From NCBI GenBank assembly GCA_022562855.1, contig JADFON010000050.1, positions 1 through 8,685 of the forward strand: a stretch of DNA of 8,685 bases, written 5' to 3'. The stretch comes from Candidatus Zhuqueibacterota bacterium (GTDB lineage: Bacteria > SM23-31). The notes beneath the pieces were generated by a model that was given only the letters and a program-made list of their open reading frames with translations, had not been told where the DNA came from and ran no database searches. Of this stretch, positions 3,140 through 8,685 are shown in pieces. The translations under genes and the position numbers were made by a program. Position 1 is the stretch's first letter. Each line of letters starts with the position of its first letter.

Positions 3140-4381
3140 CTAAGCTCTTTTTCTGCGGTACCTTACAATCGGTGATTTTTTTGAAATAATGACATCTTCG
3201 GTTATTACACATTCCCGAACATTATTCATTGATGGTATATTAAACATTATTTCTTGCATTGCCTCTTCCAGAATAGCTCTAAGCGCTCTTGCTCCTGTTT
3301 TTCTTTTCTTCGCTAATTCCACTACTTTTTTAATGGCGTCTTCTTCGAAAAGAAGTTCAACACCATCCATTTCAAAAAGTTTCTTATACTGCTTTATAAG
3401 TGAATTTTTCGGTTCAATCAGAATGCTATAGAGAGCTTTTTCATCCAATTCATCTAAAGTAGCAACTACAGGAAGTCTTCCTACCAATTCCGGTATCAAT
3501 CCGAATTTAATTAAATCGGATGGCTCGCACAATGATAGCGTATCCCCAATTTTCATATCCTCTTTCCCTTTGACTTCAGCGCCAAATCCCATAATACCGT
3601 TTTTAATTCTGCTAAGTATTATTTCTTCAAGTCCGTCAAAAGCGCCACCACAAATAAATAGAATATCTTTCGTATTAACGTTCACAAGTGGTTGTTCGGG
3701 ATGTTTTCTGCCTCCTTTCGGCGGAACGCTGGAGATCGTCCCTTCGAGAATTTTCAACAGAGCCTGCTGAACGCCTTCGCCGGATACATCCCTCGTTATC
3801 GAAGGAGAAGACGTTTTTCTTCCAATCTTGTCTATCTCATCAATATAGATGATTCCTTTTTGCGCTTTCTGTAAATCATAGTCGGCTGACTGAAGAAGTC
3901 TTACCAAAATGTTTTCCACATCTTCGCCGACATAACCTGCTTCAGTAAGGATGGTTGCATCAACAATCGTAAAGGGAACTTCAAGAAATCGGGCGAGTGT
4001 TTGGGCGATAAGCGTTTTACCCGTACCGGTGGAACCTAACATCAGTATGTTACTTTTATCTATCTCAACTTCTTCAAAAAGTTTCCGACTGCTTATCCTT
4101 TTATAGTGATTATAAACTGCAACAGCTACAGCTTTTTTTGCTTTATCCTGTCCTATTACATATTTGTCGAGTTCATTCTTGATATCATGCGGCGCCGGTA
4201 TTTTGAATTTTTGCGGCGTAATATCACTATCCGCATCTGCCTTGATAAGCTCCACGGACTCAAAAACGCAATGATCACAGATGGATACATTTGACCCTTG
4301 AATAATACGGTATGCCTGATCTTCAGACCTACCGCAAAACGAACAAGTTAAAATTTGTTCTTTATCTTCTTTATCTTTCAA
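3140..4381 (-). CDS. clpX: ATP-dependent Clp protease ATP-binding subunit ClpX
   Basis: A 413-aa protein with all ClpX hallmarks and normal length. An N-terminal zinc-binding domain has C13, C16, C35 and C38 (CSFCGR...CDHC). An AAA+ domain follows with Walker A GSTGTGKT (116-123), pore-1 loop GYVG (149-152), Walker B IIYIDEID (177-184), an RKH loop (GGRKHP, 223-228), a ClpP-contacting loop with MGF in place of the usual IGF (264-266), and sensor 2 GARALR (363-368). ClpX unfolds tagged proteins and feeds them to ClpP in the cytoplasm. The only start that keeps the zinc finger is TTG at 4381, which directly follows an in-frame TAA and overlaps the stop of the preceding ATPase gene. Only a weak AGAAG lies upstream. 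The usual neighbour clpP is absent. This gap, the TTG start and the junction suggest that the native 5' flank of clpX has been replaced. Confidence 0.96.
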
Positions 4382-4390
4382 TTATCTTCT
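4362..4390. repeat. 9-bp direct repeats at the clpX / AAA-ATPase junction
   Basis: TTATCTTCT occurs at 4362-4370 and again at 4382-4390, with a further partial copy TTATCTTT at 4371-4378. One copy lies in the first codons of clpX and the other in the last codons of the truncated ATPase, so they bracket the junction at 4378-4381. This is the pattern expected of a microhomology-mediated join, either in the cell or during library amplification or assembly. It could also be chance in AT-rich lysine and glutamate codons. Confidence 0.55.
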
Positions 4391-4983
4391 GCTTTACTTT
4401 TTTTCAATTCTAATTCTATTTCCCCTTCATAATAGTTTGGATAAATTGATAAATATTGTATTTTATTTATAGCCGGGGCCTCAGCAAACAACCTGCTTCC
4501 AAACACACCAGTATTTGTTTTAATAGAAAAGACGTTTTGAGAATCCGATTTAAATTTTATGTATTGTTTTTTTCCACCTAAAAAGTTAAATGTTACTGAG
4601 AATTGATTAATAAAACTTCCAGTCGTGTCATATTGGATTTCTGTCAGGCATTGGTAATTTCCAAAACTATTAAAAAGAGAAATTTTTTCGGAATCACCAA
4701 TTTGCGTAAATTCTGAATGATGGAATTCAAAAGATATTTTAAGATTGTTTTTAGGGTTTTTATCATATATCAAATCTAAAAACTCCCTAACCTTATAATA
4801 TTTCCCTTTCAAATAAAGTGTTTCATTTGTCGAATCTAATTCAATTGTTTGTTTGAGCAACAGTAATAGTTGTATTAAAGAAGATTTACCCGAACTGTTC
4901 ACTCCAGACAAAATAGTGAAAGGTTTGATTTCAAAATTTTGTAAACTTTTAATTGACTTAAAATTTTGGATAGATATTTTCAT
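4378..4983 (-). CDS. AAA_15/OLD-like ATPase, N-terminal half only (probably truncated)
   Basis: A 201-aa protein that opens like SMC/RecF/OLD-type ATPases: [14 protein letters not shown], then a Walker A GVNSSGKS at residues 27-34 and a leucine-rich helix. The rest is beta-rich and ends in [27 protein letters not shown]. Proteins of this type are usually much longer and carry an ABC signature, a Walker B (often in an EEPE-like context) and a switch histidine in the second half. None of these is present, so this product should not hydrolyse ATP normally unless another protein completes it. The ATG overlaps the preceding GHKL stop by 4 nt (ATGA). Base composition is much more AT-rich (roughly 27% GC in the stretches I counted) than either neighbour. 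The stop falls on the clpX start, which makes truncation by a junction more likely than a natural short protein. Confidence 0.72.
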
Positions 4984-6572
4984 TTAAAATCCTCCTTTAT
5001 TTTCTCCTTTAGATTCTCTGCAAGCTCTTTAGGTAATACCTTGTCAATCACACCGAATATTTTCGATAAAAACTTTTTTTCCTTTCTGTTCAATGAGCTT
5101 AACTCATCGGTAAGGAACTTTGTTTTTTCCTCCGCTCCGTTCGTAGGAAGTTTTATTTGTTCGACCTTCGTTTTGTTACCACCTGTTACCCTATTAAATA
5201 ACTTCCTTTTCGATGTGTCATCCTCTCCAAGATTTTCGGATATTTTGTTTAATTCTTTCTCAGCACTTTCTGCCTTTTCCTTCATTCCCTCGAATTTCTC
5301 CTTATATACCTGCTCCTCATTTTTGTCAGTAAATCCCCTTTTTCGCTTGGTTTTAAATTCTTTTTGAAATTCAACAAGTTGGTCAATTTTATTTTGGATA
5401 TTCCTGGCGGATGATGCAAAGTGGTATAAGTTATGAAGTTCTCCCCGACAAAGTTTTTTCAGTTGCTTTTCAAAATTTGCCATCAGGTCATTCTCCAAAA
5501 AGTAGTCTCTTCTTGCATTTGGGATTAGGTCTTTATGAAATGCGTGTACTTCTCCGAAAAAATAATAAGATCCCCGGTCTTCCTTAAACAATTTCACCAA
5601 ACAGTTATCCGCACCTATTTGAATATTTCCTTTTCGCAACCGAAGCCCGCGAGCTAAATTGACTTTAGGAATCACCCCTGTATAATTCGAGATACCATAC
5701 CATCCCCAGCCAAGAAACTCACCATCAACCCCACCAATAGTAAACCATTGCAATTGATTGATGTCGTCTATTTTCTTTTTGCCCCCGTTCTCTTCTTTGT
5801 AAATGCTGGTCGTATATGCTTTGAATATTTGATTATTGTTTACATAAATAATGTATTCATCAATTGACTGCCCGTGCTTATTTAATTCTTCGTGTATCTG
5901 GTCGCTAAAAATGAATCCTTTATTGAAAGGGACAGGTGCAACCATTGACAAGTATTCAATAATGTTTCTTTTATCTAAAAGAGCATCATTAGTTACACCA
6001 ACAAGCGTAACTCTGAAATACCTTTCTTGAGATTTGGCTGATTTTGTTTCAAAACTCGTTACTTTATCAATAACATCAACAGCTTCTTCTTTTTTGCTGC
6101 GATCGTGTATGATATTTTTTAATAGCTTGGCATCCCAAGTCAATACCGATTTCACATCTTCACCTTCATAGCTTGTTTCAAATACAAGCTTGTCGCAATA
6201 TCCTAAACCACCCAATCTTCCAATTCCCCTGAAACCCTTATGTTTTTCCCTGTCTTTCGGTGATTGTGCAACGTTTTTGAGAACTGATAATATTTGCACT
6301 GCTTTTATCCCTGTTGCATTGTCATAAATAGTAATTTTTCTTCCCGCTTTATCTATATCAATTTCAATATAGCCCTCATCCCTCGTTTGTAATATCCCTT
6401 CCTCAGCCGCCTTATCAATCTGGTCAGCACCATTTTGGATATATTCACGATAAATAAACCTTGCATCCTCATACATCCCAAGAGTTAAGGACTCGATAAC
6501 ATCTTTTCCTATTCTTGTTTTTGTGTCAACCATTTTGGAACTGCTTGTAAAGTGGTCTAGGAAATTTGACAT
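4980..6572 (-). CDS. Hsp90-like GHKL ATPase with C-terminal coiled coil
   Basis: A 530-aa protein whose first third is a GHKL (gyrase/Hsp90/histidine kinase/MutL) ATP-binding fold. The N-box is REYIQNGAD (42-50, with E43, N47 and D50), the G1 box is DNATG (84-88), and the lid region is HKGFRGIGRLGGLG (111-124). A second conserved stretch near 308-320 (RGLRLRKGNIQIG) looks like the S5-type domain that follows GHKL folds and may supply the catalytic lysine. Residues about 393-447 are charged and heptad-like, a probable coiled coil for dimer or partner contact. No histidine-kinase dimerisation or membrane segment is seen, so it resembles Hsp90/MutL/MORC-type proteins. The stop overlaps the next gene by 4 nt. 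The ATG at 6572 overlaps herA by 47 nt and has a weak AGGT upstream. ATG at 6533 (MVDTKTRIGKD) gives only an 8-nt overlap and is an equally good start. Confidence 0.85.
   Translation of the reverse strand: MSNFLDHFTSSSKMVDTKTRIGKDVIESLTLGMYEDARFIYREYIQNGADQIDKAAEEGILQTRDEGYIEIDIDKAGRKITIYDNATGIKAVQILSVLKNVAQSPKDREKHKGFRGIGRLGGLGYCDKLVFETSYEGEDVKSVLTWDAKLLKNIIHDRSKKEEAVDVIDKVTSFETKSAKSQERYFRVTLVGVTNDALLDKRNIIEYLSMVAPVPFNKGFIFSDQIHEELNKHGQSIDEYIIYVNNNQIFKAYTTSIYKEENGGKKKIDDINQLQWFTIGGVDGEFLGWGWYGISNYTGVIPKVNLARGLRLRKGNIQIGADNCLVKLFKEDRGSYYFFGEVHAFHKDLIPNARRDYFLENDLMANFEKQLKKLCRGELHNLYHFASSARNIQNKIDQLVEFQKEFKTKRKRGFTDKNEEQVYKEKFEGMKEKAESAEKELNKISENLGEDDTSKRKLFNRVTGGNKTKVEQIKLPTNGAEEKTKFLTDELSSLNRKEKKFLSKIFGVIDKVLPKELAENLKEKIKEDFK
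4991..4997 (-). promoter_or_regulatory. Strong ribosome binding site inside the end of the GHKL gene
   Basis: AAGGAGG on the minus strand, 7 nt before the ATG at 4983. It is a perfect Shine-Dalgarno sequence that also encodes the last Lys-Glu-Asp residues of the GHKL protein. With the ATGA overlap it supports coupled translation and confirms this start for the AAA-ATPase gene. Confidence 0.8.
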
Positions 6573-8157
6573 TTAGCAATGACCTGAATACAGGATGTTC
6601 AATAATGTATTCGCCCGGTTCCAACCGTGTCATCATATTCTTGTAAACAGGAGGTATGAATCTATAATCGGGTTTTGTTGCTTCAATTGCATTGGTTCTT
6701 CCATAGGCGTGTGTTGCACAGTTACCCTTCACTCTGTCATGTATTGCGCTTTTGAATTGCTCCACCGAGAACAATATAATACCCATAGAACGCCCCCGTT
6801 CCGTAATGTCAATTATCTGCCTTAGAATTGGTGAATTCTTTGGTACATCACTTGACGCATACTTGTTTAGTTCATCAATAAAAATGATAACCTTGGAAGG
6901 TATTTCGGTTTCGTCCCTGTCCTCTTGTCCTAATTTCAAATCATAAATAGCCCCGATAACGTCCCCGAATACAAATGCCTGCGTGTCTTGGTCGAGCTTA
7001 GCAATATCAATAACATAAGCATCATTCTTCTGAATGTTCTTTATCGCATCTCGCATCCTTGTTTCATTCTTTTCCTTTACTACGCGCTTAGAAAATATGG
7101 GATGTGTGAGGGCTTTATTGATTATTCTTTTAAATTTCCTCCAGCTATTAACCATTATTTCTTTATCTCCTGATTTTCCTGGTTTACAATGTTCACCAAC
7201 CGCATTTTTAAATTGCGCCCAATTACCTATCTCACTAAACCCTCCTTGTTCTGTAATAATATAGTTGATTATCGAATCCATTGTGCCAGATGAATCGTCT
7301 ATATTGGCAAACATTAACTCCAAATTATCCTTGTCCTCCTCGAAAATGTATTTGTATTTGAATGCTATGTTTTGATCAATTTGGGCTTCAATGTCTTTTT
7401 CTCTTCCATGACTAAAAGTGAACGTTTTGCCTGAATCTGCATACGGATAGAAATATTTTGCATTCTTGAAAGGCTCGGTATCCAATTTCATCATTTCATA
7501 TATCTTTTTCTCCTCTCTTGCTATATCCTTGTTTGGTTCGTCAATTGCCAGCAAGTCCCTTCCTTTTACATTGAAAATCACAAACGCAACCGTTTCGTCA
7601 CGTTCTATATCAATATTATTAAGGTATTTGTGTTGTATCGCCTTCAAGAGAAACATCGAGTATGACGTTTTAGCTGCCAACCCCGAAATACCGGAAATAT
7701 TCAAATGCGCTCCCTCTGGCCCAATAAGGAATTTAGGGTTAAAGCGCACAGGCAAGGTTACTTTATCATCCCCTTTATACATTTCAATGTATCCGCACGG
7801 GAGAGTGTTTTTCTTATCATCAAGCCCCAATGCCTGCGCAACTTCTTTTGCATTTGCCAAACTTACTTTGCTTCCGTCAAGCACAGGGGTATAAATGCCT
7901 TCACTATTGCCAACCACCTTCGCCTTTACATAATTCATTCCTATTCTATGAGTGTTCAAAACAGTTTCTACATCCCCGAAATCACTTGAAATGAAATTAC
8001 TTAGATAGCTTGCAGAATCGGTGATATGAGAAATTTCCTCAATCACTCCGAATGTTATAGAGCCATCTATGTGGTCAGCTTTTACCACATCAAAAGGACT
8101 TAGCACCATTTGCTTGTCCGTCCAAAAATAGAAATCATCTAACCGTTGAACGACCAT
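6526..8157 (-). CDS. HerA/FtsK-superfamily ATPase (DUF87-like) with atypical P-loop
   Basis: A 543-aa protein. Residues about 18-100 look like the small beta-barrel (HAS-like) domain common at the N-terminus of HerA proteins. The nucleotide site begins HLNISGISGLAAKTSYS (151-167): it aligns with the HerA P-loop (HLxxxGxTGxGKS) but has one extra residue and alanine where the glycine before lysine is expected. Walker B is clear: VIIFIDELN (423-431, D428 and E429). It is followed by ERGRSMGIILFSVEQ (453-467), the region where HerA and FtsK proteins place sensor and subunit-contact residues. HerA-type proteins form hexameric DNA pumps, acting with NurA in archaeal end resection and with various nucleases in bacterial defence loci. 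Here no nuclease lies adjacent; the partner is the overlapping GHKL gene. The start is ATG, with no clear Shine-Dalgarno site, and an in-frame TAA lies just upstream. Confidence 0.87.
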   Translation of the reverse strand: MVVQRLDDFYFWTDKQMVLSPFDVVKADHIDGSITFGVIEEISHITDSASYLSNFISSDFGDVETVLNTHRIGMNYVKAKVVGNSEGIYTPVLDGSKVSLANAKEVAQALGLDDKKNTLPCGYIEMYKGDDKVTLPVRFNPKFLIGPEGAHLNISGISGLAAKTSYSMFLLKAIQHKYLNNIDIERDETVAFVIFNVKGRDLLAIDEPNKDIAREEKKIYEMMKLDTEPFKNAKYFYPYADSGKTFTFSHGREKDIEAQIDQNIAFKYKYIFEEDKDNLELMFANIDDSSGTMDSIINYIITEQGGFSEIGNWAQFKNAVGEHCKPGKSGDKEIMVNSWRKFKRIINKALTHPIFSKRVVKEKNETRMRDAIKNIQKNDAYVIDIAKLDQDTQAFVFGDVIGAIYDLKLGQEDRDETEIPSKVIIFIDELNKYASSDVPKNSPILRQIIDITERGRSMGIILFSVEQFKSAIHDRVKGNCATHAYGRTNAIEATKPDYRFIPPVYKNMMTRLEPGEYIIEHPVFRSLLNVKFPRPLYKQFQNG

Positions 8158-8220
8158 CCACTTTTATATTATCGGAAACACCATGCTTCCCACTGCCTTT
8201 ACGCGTGGCCCACGGGTCAA
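8158..8220. other. Composition breakpoint between cassette and GC-rich DNA
   Basis: Base composition changes within about 60 nt, from about 40% GC (herA) to about 60-70% GC. The stretch next to herA (8160-8180) is AT-rich and the rest GC-rich. I find no tRNA end, integrase site, terminal inverted repeat or terminator in it, and the 9-bp repeat of the other border is not present here. A weak TAATAT sits about 13 nt before the herA ATG, too close to serve as a normal leadered promoter. Confidence 0.6.
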
Positions 8221-8685
8221 CCGGGGGCCGCGGCGCGCTTGAAGAGGGCGCCGACGAACGCTGTAATGGCTTGGCGGGATATTAGCATTATCACAAGGGC
8301 ATATGCGATTTCGAGGCCCGTAAAGGCGTACGGCGACCCGAACGTCTCGTTGCCATGGACCCAAAATGCCAGCCCGCCGAACGTCGGGTGCCAGAGAAGC
8401 AAGGCCATCGCCGACCGGGTGCGCAACAGCTCTTTCAGGTAAAAGACGATCTCAGGACCGGCAAGCCCCAGAATGCCGTAGGCGCACACGCCCAACACCA
8501 CCCACAGGGCAAGCATCCGTTCCAGGGACAGGTGCAGCAGGAGGAATGACAGCGCGCCGGCGCCATGAACAGCCACCGCGAGGCACACGAACTTCTCGTA
8601 GCCAAGGGCATTTTCAAGATGCCACAATGGCACGAACAATAATTGGACCGCATACCAGATCAGCAGGATTTGCGTGGCCGTGACC
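8217..8685 (-). CDS. Polytopic inner-membrane protein, C-terminal part (flippase-like?)
   Basis: An open frame that enters from the right edge and ends at a TGA at 8217, giving the last 155 residues. Hydrophobic stretches near residues 5-23, 32-52, 57-80, 92-110 and 118-137 predict about five membrane helices, with a short basic tail (FKRAAAPG). The pattern, including PLWHLENALGYEK between the first helices, is reminiscent of the C-terminal half of polysaccharide flippases of the MOP superfamily, but no diagnostic motif confirms this. GC content is about 60%, with GC-rich codon choice unlike every other gene here. It is therefore either recently transferred DNA or sequence from a different organism joined to this window. 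Its true start lies outside the window. Confidence 0.6.
   Translation of the reverse strand, partial: VTATQILLIWYAVQLLFVPLWHLENALGYEKFVCLAVAVHGAGALSFLLLHLSLERMLALWVVLGVCAYGILGLAGPEIVFYLKELLRTRSAMALLLWHPTFGGLAFWVHGNETFGSPYAFTGLEIAYALVIMLISRQAITAFVGALFKRAAAPG

Follow-up and report, generated by a model that had tools for sequence, protein, structure and literature searches.

The three overlapping ATPase genes found in an 8,685-nucleotide stretch of Candidatus Zhuqueibacterota DNA (contig JADFON010000050.1, hereafter the window) are, judged by sequence comparison, a fragment of a larger cassette that was cut at both ends. This cassette, NurA-HerA-GHKL-radical SAM, is almost certainly real and conserved. 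It was found neither in PADLOC nor in the open-access literature searched, recurs in distant bacteria and often lies near defence genes; from its genomic context, it is probably a defence system. The cassette is characterized by a conserved gene order, by catalytic motifs and folds, by co-occurrence of its genes, by its patchiness and by defence-rich flanks.

The truncated operon in the window

All three genes are located on the reverse strand, and our ORF call agrees with the frames, strand and overlaps given in the original prediction. The HerA-type hexameric ATPase (6526-8157, 543 aa, N-terminally truncated, with the homologous part at about 6529-8141) had no Pfam match. It belongs to the HerA family by its match to D. 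radiodurans HerA from PDB (6.7e-38), is 57% identical to HerA of locus L007 and carries Walker A (GISGLAAKTS) and Walker B (DELNK) motifs, which are kept across 86 HerA sequences. The Hsp90/MORC-like GHKL ATPase (4980-6572, 530 aa as called) matched Pfam HATPase_c_3 (2.6e-8) and contained an N-box (REYxQNxAD), G1 (DNATG) and G2 (GFRGIGRL) motifs and a long coiled coil at approximately residues 362-448. The AAA fragment (4378-4983, an ORF of 201 aa), of which 4382-4983 represents about 199 N-terminal residues of an AAA_15/NsnB-like protein, matched Pfam AAA_15 (6e-10) and PADLOC NsnB (2e-21). It overlaps the GHKL gene by 4 nt. The GHKL/HerA overlap amounts to 47 nt when counted from the first ATG, or to 8 nt with the methionine of MVDTKTRIGKD (6533) as the GHKL start. 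The latter start is probably the right one, since the GHKL of the closest relative begins with MVDTK and a HerA/GHKL gap of -8 nt recurs in Bacteroidota.

This closest relative, locus L031 of a Bacteroidetes MAG, is 91.5% identical at the nucleotide level over window positions 4840-8141, and the similarity stops abruptly at 8141. At this right junction (8138-8165), the operon fragment meets unrelated DNA, so that nurA and the start of HerA (about 20 N-terminal residues) are absent. The GC content is 0.36-0.38 inside the operon segment versus 0.59 at 8142-8685, and the trinucleotide profile of 4382-8141 was closest to that of the L031 operon. No match to the right junction was found by exact search against viral contigs. 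At the left junction (4378-4384), the fragment meets clpX within an A-rich stretch. The window AAA aligns with residues 1-203 of a 469-aa relative (L075) at 60% identity and ends at clpX; from this, the AAA/clpX overlap can be regarded as a junction effect, the AAA fragment being cut short where clpX begins. The full operon in L031 carries further genes at this place, in line with the gene loss originally supposed there. Two different clpX genes, 60% identical, were present in the genome bin (window 3140-4381 and G000 contig C108, 2268-3485). No other piece of the operon was found in the bin, nor a second copy in the six genomes of the phylum that were searched. Outside the operon, the window encodes a metallo-beta-lactamase-fold hydrolase near RNase Z (351-1175) and a protein that is likely secreted (1269-2903), which matches BNR repeats weakly and has a Por_Secre_tail sorting domain.

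Taken by its composition and alignments, the contig looks like a chimera of three joined pieces, and it is uncertain which host the operon comes from. Contig C56 may be foreign to this genome, and the window junctions may also represent a real rearrangement. It is extremely improbable that the trio itself is an accident of assembly and no biological unit. Both of its ends are junctions, composition shifts there and the bin contains two clpX genes, but the HerA-GHKL-AAA order recurs with its overlaps in four intact operons elsewhere (L031, L032, L035 and L056), and nucleotide identity to L031 is 91% throughout HerA-GHKL. For the operon, an accident is already refuted, while the flanking joins stay doubtful.

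Gene content and inheritance of the intact cassette

A GHKL alignment, run against about 85,000 species genomes, yielded 450 relatives, the best 79 of which were taken as genome loci. Exactly NurA-HerA-GHKL-radical SAM was present in 51 of these 79, and in 17 the four families were all present but separated by other genes, either optional modules or broken gene pieces. One locus (L042) possessed the four-gene cassette with a DGQHR gene downstream; the remaining 10 ended at contig edges or had extra or interrupted genes. The cassette genes shared one strand throughout, the gaps between them had medians of 6, 2 and -4 nt (79 loci), and clustering of ORFs from 107 loci recovered radical SAM in 98, HerA in 86 and NurA in 80. 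Cultured carriers included Dysgonomonas macrotermitis, with the four-gene cassette, and Flagellimonas meridianipacifica, with a five-gene version.

Inserts were located between GHKL and radical SAM, namely AAA_15-X-GHKL2 (5 loci), GHKL2-c9 (8 loci) or single genes of 475-479 aa (2 loci). As they differ among loci, the window AAA belongs to the variable part and not to the core. The intact L031 operon is ordered NurA-HerA-GHKL-AAA_15-X-GHKL2-radical SAM. Its second GHKL paralogue (L031 13834-15369) is 67% identical in nucleotides to window 6159-6521, a short stretch. The insert families c9 (~330 aa, for example L033 13235-14224) and X (~290 aa, for example L031 12938-13825), exchangeable parts at this position, gave no useful Pfam match. 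Directly after the radical SAM gene, a reverse transcriptase (L109 10370-11899) and a MazG-domain protein (L058 9477-10481) were observed, possibly as extra modules.

HerA and GHKL, expected to be a conserved pair made together, are indeed one, and their adjacency is not due to chance. The HerA-GHKL-AAA_15 trio did not hold as a unit: the core is NurA-HerA-GHKL-radical SAM, with AAA_15 optional (5 of 79 loci). Nor was the TOPRIM nuclease anticipated in the absent C-terminal half of the AAA encountered, as a full-length relative of 461 aa gave only AAA_15/AAA_21 and other P-loop Pfam matches; an OLD nuclease identity was rejected on the same grounds. As for an effector lost from the operon, genes had been lost at the clpX junction as proposed, but the likely nuclease is NurA, encoded upstream of HerA and lost at about 8142. 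Against the original prediction would have spoken HerA and GHKL that are rarely adjacent or that always belong to a conjugation, segregation or packaging module. Neither was seen; no neighbours of the latter kinds were recognised at the loci inspected.

Co-occurrence was also examined in 378 Lachnospiraceae genomes by an independent search, which found radical SAM in 13, HerA in 11 and both in 10 (Fisher 2e-16). The co-occurrence of the cassette genes does not reflect query bias. One contig carried both genes, spaced by about 3.3 kb, in every case but genome G384, whose HerA was split over two contigs, and GHKL adjoined radical SAM in all 10 of the 10 Lachnospiraceae radical SAM loci fetched. 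Among 72,556 plasmid records, GHKL and radical SAM searches matched the identical 12. Pairwise distances of the four cassette proteins correlated at 0.80-0.91 (67 loci), a range to which correlated host phylogeny contributes, and fit joint inheritance. The cassette is patchy; one family, for instance, gave a strong match in a single genome out of 299. Some of its nearest relatives occurred in other phyla, a few of which could be accounted for by MAG contamination. Viral contigs gave no matches in single-protein scans with the window GHKL and HerA; alignment queries are needed for them.

Protein identities, defence neighbours and known systems

The cassette NurA had no match to Pfam NurA. By hhalign it matched NurA-like neighbours of HerA-SbcCD operons (92.6%, E 4.4e-7), which themselves match Pfam NurA only weakly (0.0015), and its profile compared directly with DrNurA reached only E 0.11. 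It contains a DGS motif, positions D82, E51, D223 and E318 are about invariant, and its gene lies upstream of herA. By remote homology, the protein can thus be assigned to NurA, the likely nuclease of the cassette. The AF2 model of GHKL (pLDDT 87.8) matched the folds of Hsp90 (Z 24.4), SMCHD1 (21.1) and MORC3 (20.8); with conserved N-, G1- and G2-boxes and with N-terminal and middle domains, it is a member of the Hsp90/MORC-type GHKL proteins. The radical SAM model (pLDDT 87.2) was closest to TsrM (Z 14.3), AprD4 (13.8) and MgmA (13.6). It combines an N-terminal Rossmann domain resembling B12-binding domains with a TIM-type barrel, and its CxxxCxxC motif is invariant. As modelled, the enzyme has a cobalamin-type (class B) fold, and cobalamin binding is predicted. 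A methylthiotransferase (MiaB/RimO) was rejected, as only the three motif cysteines were conserved at >=93% (98 sequences) and those of a second cluster were absent. Among solved structures, those closest to radical SAM belong to enzymes whose substrates are small molecules, peptides, proteins and tRNA rather than DNA, which counts against a DNA mark.

To assess genomic context, 110 flanking proteins and 110 control-region proteins (11 of the same genomes) were searched with PADLOC models at 1e-10. There were 163 models matched in flanks versus 13 in controls, a ratio that overstates the effect, as models were counted and several may match one protein; control regions were also few in number. 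At 1e-60, the flanks contained AbiEii, PtuA, Cas7b, SoFic, HEC-01B and PDC-S01/S05/S13. The loci thus lie among defence genes, as had been suspected. A viral contig (L018/L028) carried Lamassu, DrmA, DrmB and a NERD-helicase together with the radical SAM-GHKL pair. Its run of genes (L018 6414-21125, L028 979-12709; IMGVR_UViG_2619619281_000003) comprises LmuA/LmuB, GHKL, a NERD/UvrD helicase, DrmA, DrmB, the NERD-helicase, radical SAM and a second GHKL, and none of its genes that were searched was identified as a methylase. By its gene content, this run is a DISARM-like locus with radical SAM-GHKL.

The cassette resembles several known systems in part. It shares with HerA-NurA of archaea and Deinococcus, which occurs alone or with Mre11/Rad50, the NurA gene upstream of HerA in an operon, the HerA match to DrHerA and the NurA DGS motifs, but it has GHKL and radical SAM in place of SbcC/SbcD, is patchy and lies in defence context. 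DISARM consists of DrmA, DrmB, DrmC and a DNA methylase. The L018/L028 contig and a comparable arrangement of a modification enzyme with a helicase/nuclease recall it, while the main cassette has NurA-HerA instead and neither drm genes nor a methylase; DISARM membership was therefore rejected for it, with L018/L028, which has drmA and drmB, as the exception. Alphaproteobacterial versions resemble Dnd/Dpd in carrying a DndB-like DGQHR gene directly before radical SAM, although no cysteine desulfurase, PP-loop sulfurtransferase or TGT was seen and NurA-HerA cassettes mostly lack DGQHR. The full-length AAA_15 of L031 matched NsnB of PADLOC (3.3e-65), a component of Menshen (NsnABC), and its neighbour X matched NsnC weakly (0.002). 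Menshen is described as combining DUF262 with an OLD nuclease (PMC10952713). In the L031 operon, no DUF262 (NsnA) gene was seen, a second GHKL is present instead and the NsnB-like gene occurs only as an insert, so that membership was rejected. The SIR2-HerA and DUF4297-HerA anti-phage systems also couple a HerA motor to an effector, but the cassette effector is NurA-like, and GHKL and radical SAM are extra. Among GHKL defence proteins, VcSduA is a Shedu protein with a GHKL domain (PMC12137116); VcSduA, MzaB and paraMORC share the use of an Hsp90/MORC-type ATPase as nuclease regulator, whereas the cassette GHKL is a separate protein with a coiled-coil C-terminus.

No named system fits, as originally noted. 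At E<0.1, nothing in PADLOC matched the window GHKL, and at 0.01 nothing matched the L031 NurA, while HerA (mad8, 5.5e-5) and radical SAM (JetC, 0.008) had only weak matches. In open-access literature, no description combined NurA, HerA, radical SAM and GHKL, although preprints or subscription journals could hold one; NurA, HerA and radical SAM appeared together only on an unrelated subject, and DGQHR with radical SAM only in profiling work.

Possible functions of the cassette

The partners of radical SAM outside the cassette bear on its substrate. On alphaproteobacterial plasmids, a DGQHR protein (DndB Pfam, 2.6e-5) is encoded directly upstream of radical SAM, another neighbour of the GHKL-radical SAM pair is DpdB-like (2.4e-16), and SNF2 and ParB-like genes also accompany this pair. 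The plasmid operon DGQHR-radical SAM-GHKL is a sister system of the cassette. It was seen in L003, L004, L005, L006 and L008 (Rhizobiales, Novosphingobium pNL1 and Roseomonas plasmids), where its frequent neighbours are a PIN_8-GHKL pair, an SNF2 helicase and genes for ParB-like proteins. Compact viral relatives of the radical SAM mostly occur without GHKL, and a ParB-like protein was at most three genes away in 11 of 49 such loci, compared with 0 among 438 distant genes. Compact proteins of ~280-430 aa at L164, L167-L172, L174 and other viral loci share a DFNQG motif, some of them beside a short ParB-like gene. In the phage Marinitoga camini virus 1 (L010 4888-8714), NurA-HerA is accompanied by a compact relative of radical SAM encoded on the other strand, and GHKL was not found there. 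From the DGQHR, DpdB-like, ParB-like and DrmAB partners, we infer that the substrate of radical SAM would be DNA.

In the proposed mechanism, the cobalamin-type radical SAM would chemically mark host DNA, and a dimer of the Hsp90/MORC-like GHKL would act as an ATP-driven clamp sensing unmarked or otherwise foreign DNA. The clamp would license the HerA motor, which would feed the sensed DNA to NurA for degradation. GHKL would thus be the switch, and NurA-HerA would degrade target DNA. We tentatively regard the window as carrying a broken piece of a mobile, patchy four-gene defence cassette, in its NsnB-like AAA_15 variant, with such a mark-sense-degrade mechanism. That the cassette is restriction-modification-like, with radical SAM as the DNA marker and NurA-HerA as the nuclease motor, is the leading reading, although less likely than not. 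More speculative is the general form of the idea, namely that a cobalamin-dependent radical SAM writes a new DNA base mark which the Hsp90/MORC-like clamp reads, gating interchangeable nuclease-motor modules (NurA-HerA, DrmAB, or DGQHR with PIN and SNF2); we consider it rather unlikely. None of 74 radical SAM genes was broken versus a few broken GHKL or HerA genes, a difference that is not significant and agrees only weakly with the prediction that loss of a modification gene should not precede that of the nuclease.

Other functions would be compatible with part of these data. Viperins make altered nucleotides, and radical SAM might likewise serve as an effector or a maker of messengers, yielding an altered nucleotide, a signal or damage to invader nucleic acid, while NurA-HerA and GHKL sense and process phage DNA. 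The defence context of cassette flanks and of the Lamassu/Drm contig agrees with this, and viperin, a radical SAM defence enzyme, was among the fold matches; yet its Z was low (7.2-7.5) versus 12-14 for the cobalamin-type enzymes to which the fold is nearest, and the DGQHR and ParB-like partners point to DNA. We hold this function to be unlikely. It is somewhat hard to credit that the enzyme modifies protein or RNA instead, for example by a mark keeping NurA-HerA or GHKL inactive, or by a tRNA mark. Its nearest solved structures include MgmA (a protein methylase), TsrM and MiaB (tRNA), but radical SAM stays when DrmAB, DGQHR or SNF2/ParB-like modules replace NurA-HerA, and the compact viral enzymes exist without GHKL.

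Finally, the cassette might be an operon for DNA repair or recombination, in which NurA-HerA resects ends and radical SAM takes out a lesion. HerA-NurA in its canonical form is a repair machine, and spore photoproduct lyase is a radical SAM enzyme that removes lesions. Resection is an established activity of HerA-NurA in archaea and in Deinococcus (PMC12977600), and among canonical operons NurA-HerA-SbcD-SbcC is the closest relative. A repair role nevertheless appears improbable, for the cassette is rare and patchy (1 of 299 and 13 of 378 genomes), some of its nearest relatives belong to other phyla, its flanks are rich in defence genes and its inserts are swappable. On informal inspection of the loci, no Mre11/Rad50 genes were noticed next to the cassette.

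If the mark-sense-degrade mechanism is true, the cassette would represent an immune pathway uniting an Hsp90/MORC-type ATPase, HerA-NurA and B12-radical chemistry, and a new modification of DNA (or of another target) would be predicted. It would also be a defence cassette that has so far gone unnamed, despite the 450 GHKL relatives present in about 85,000 species genomes.
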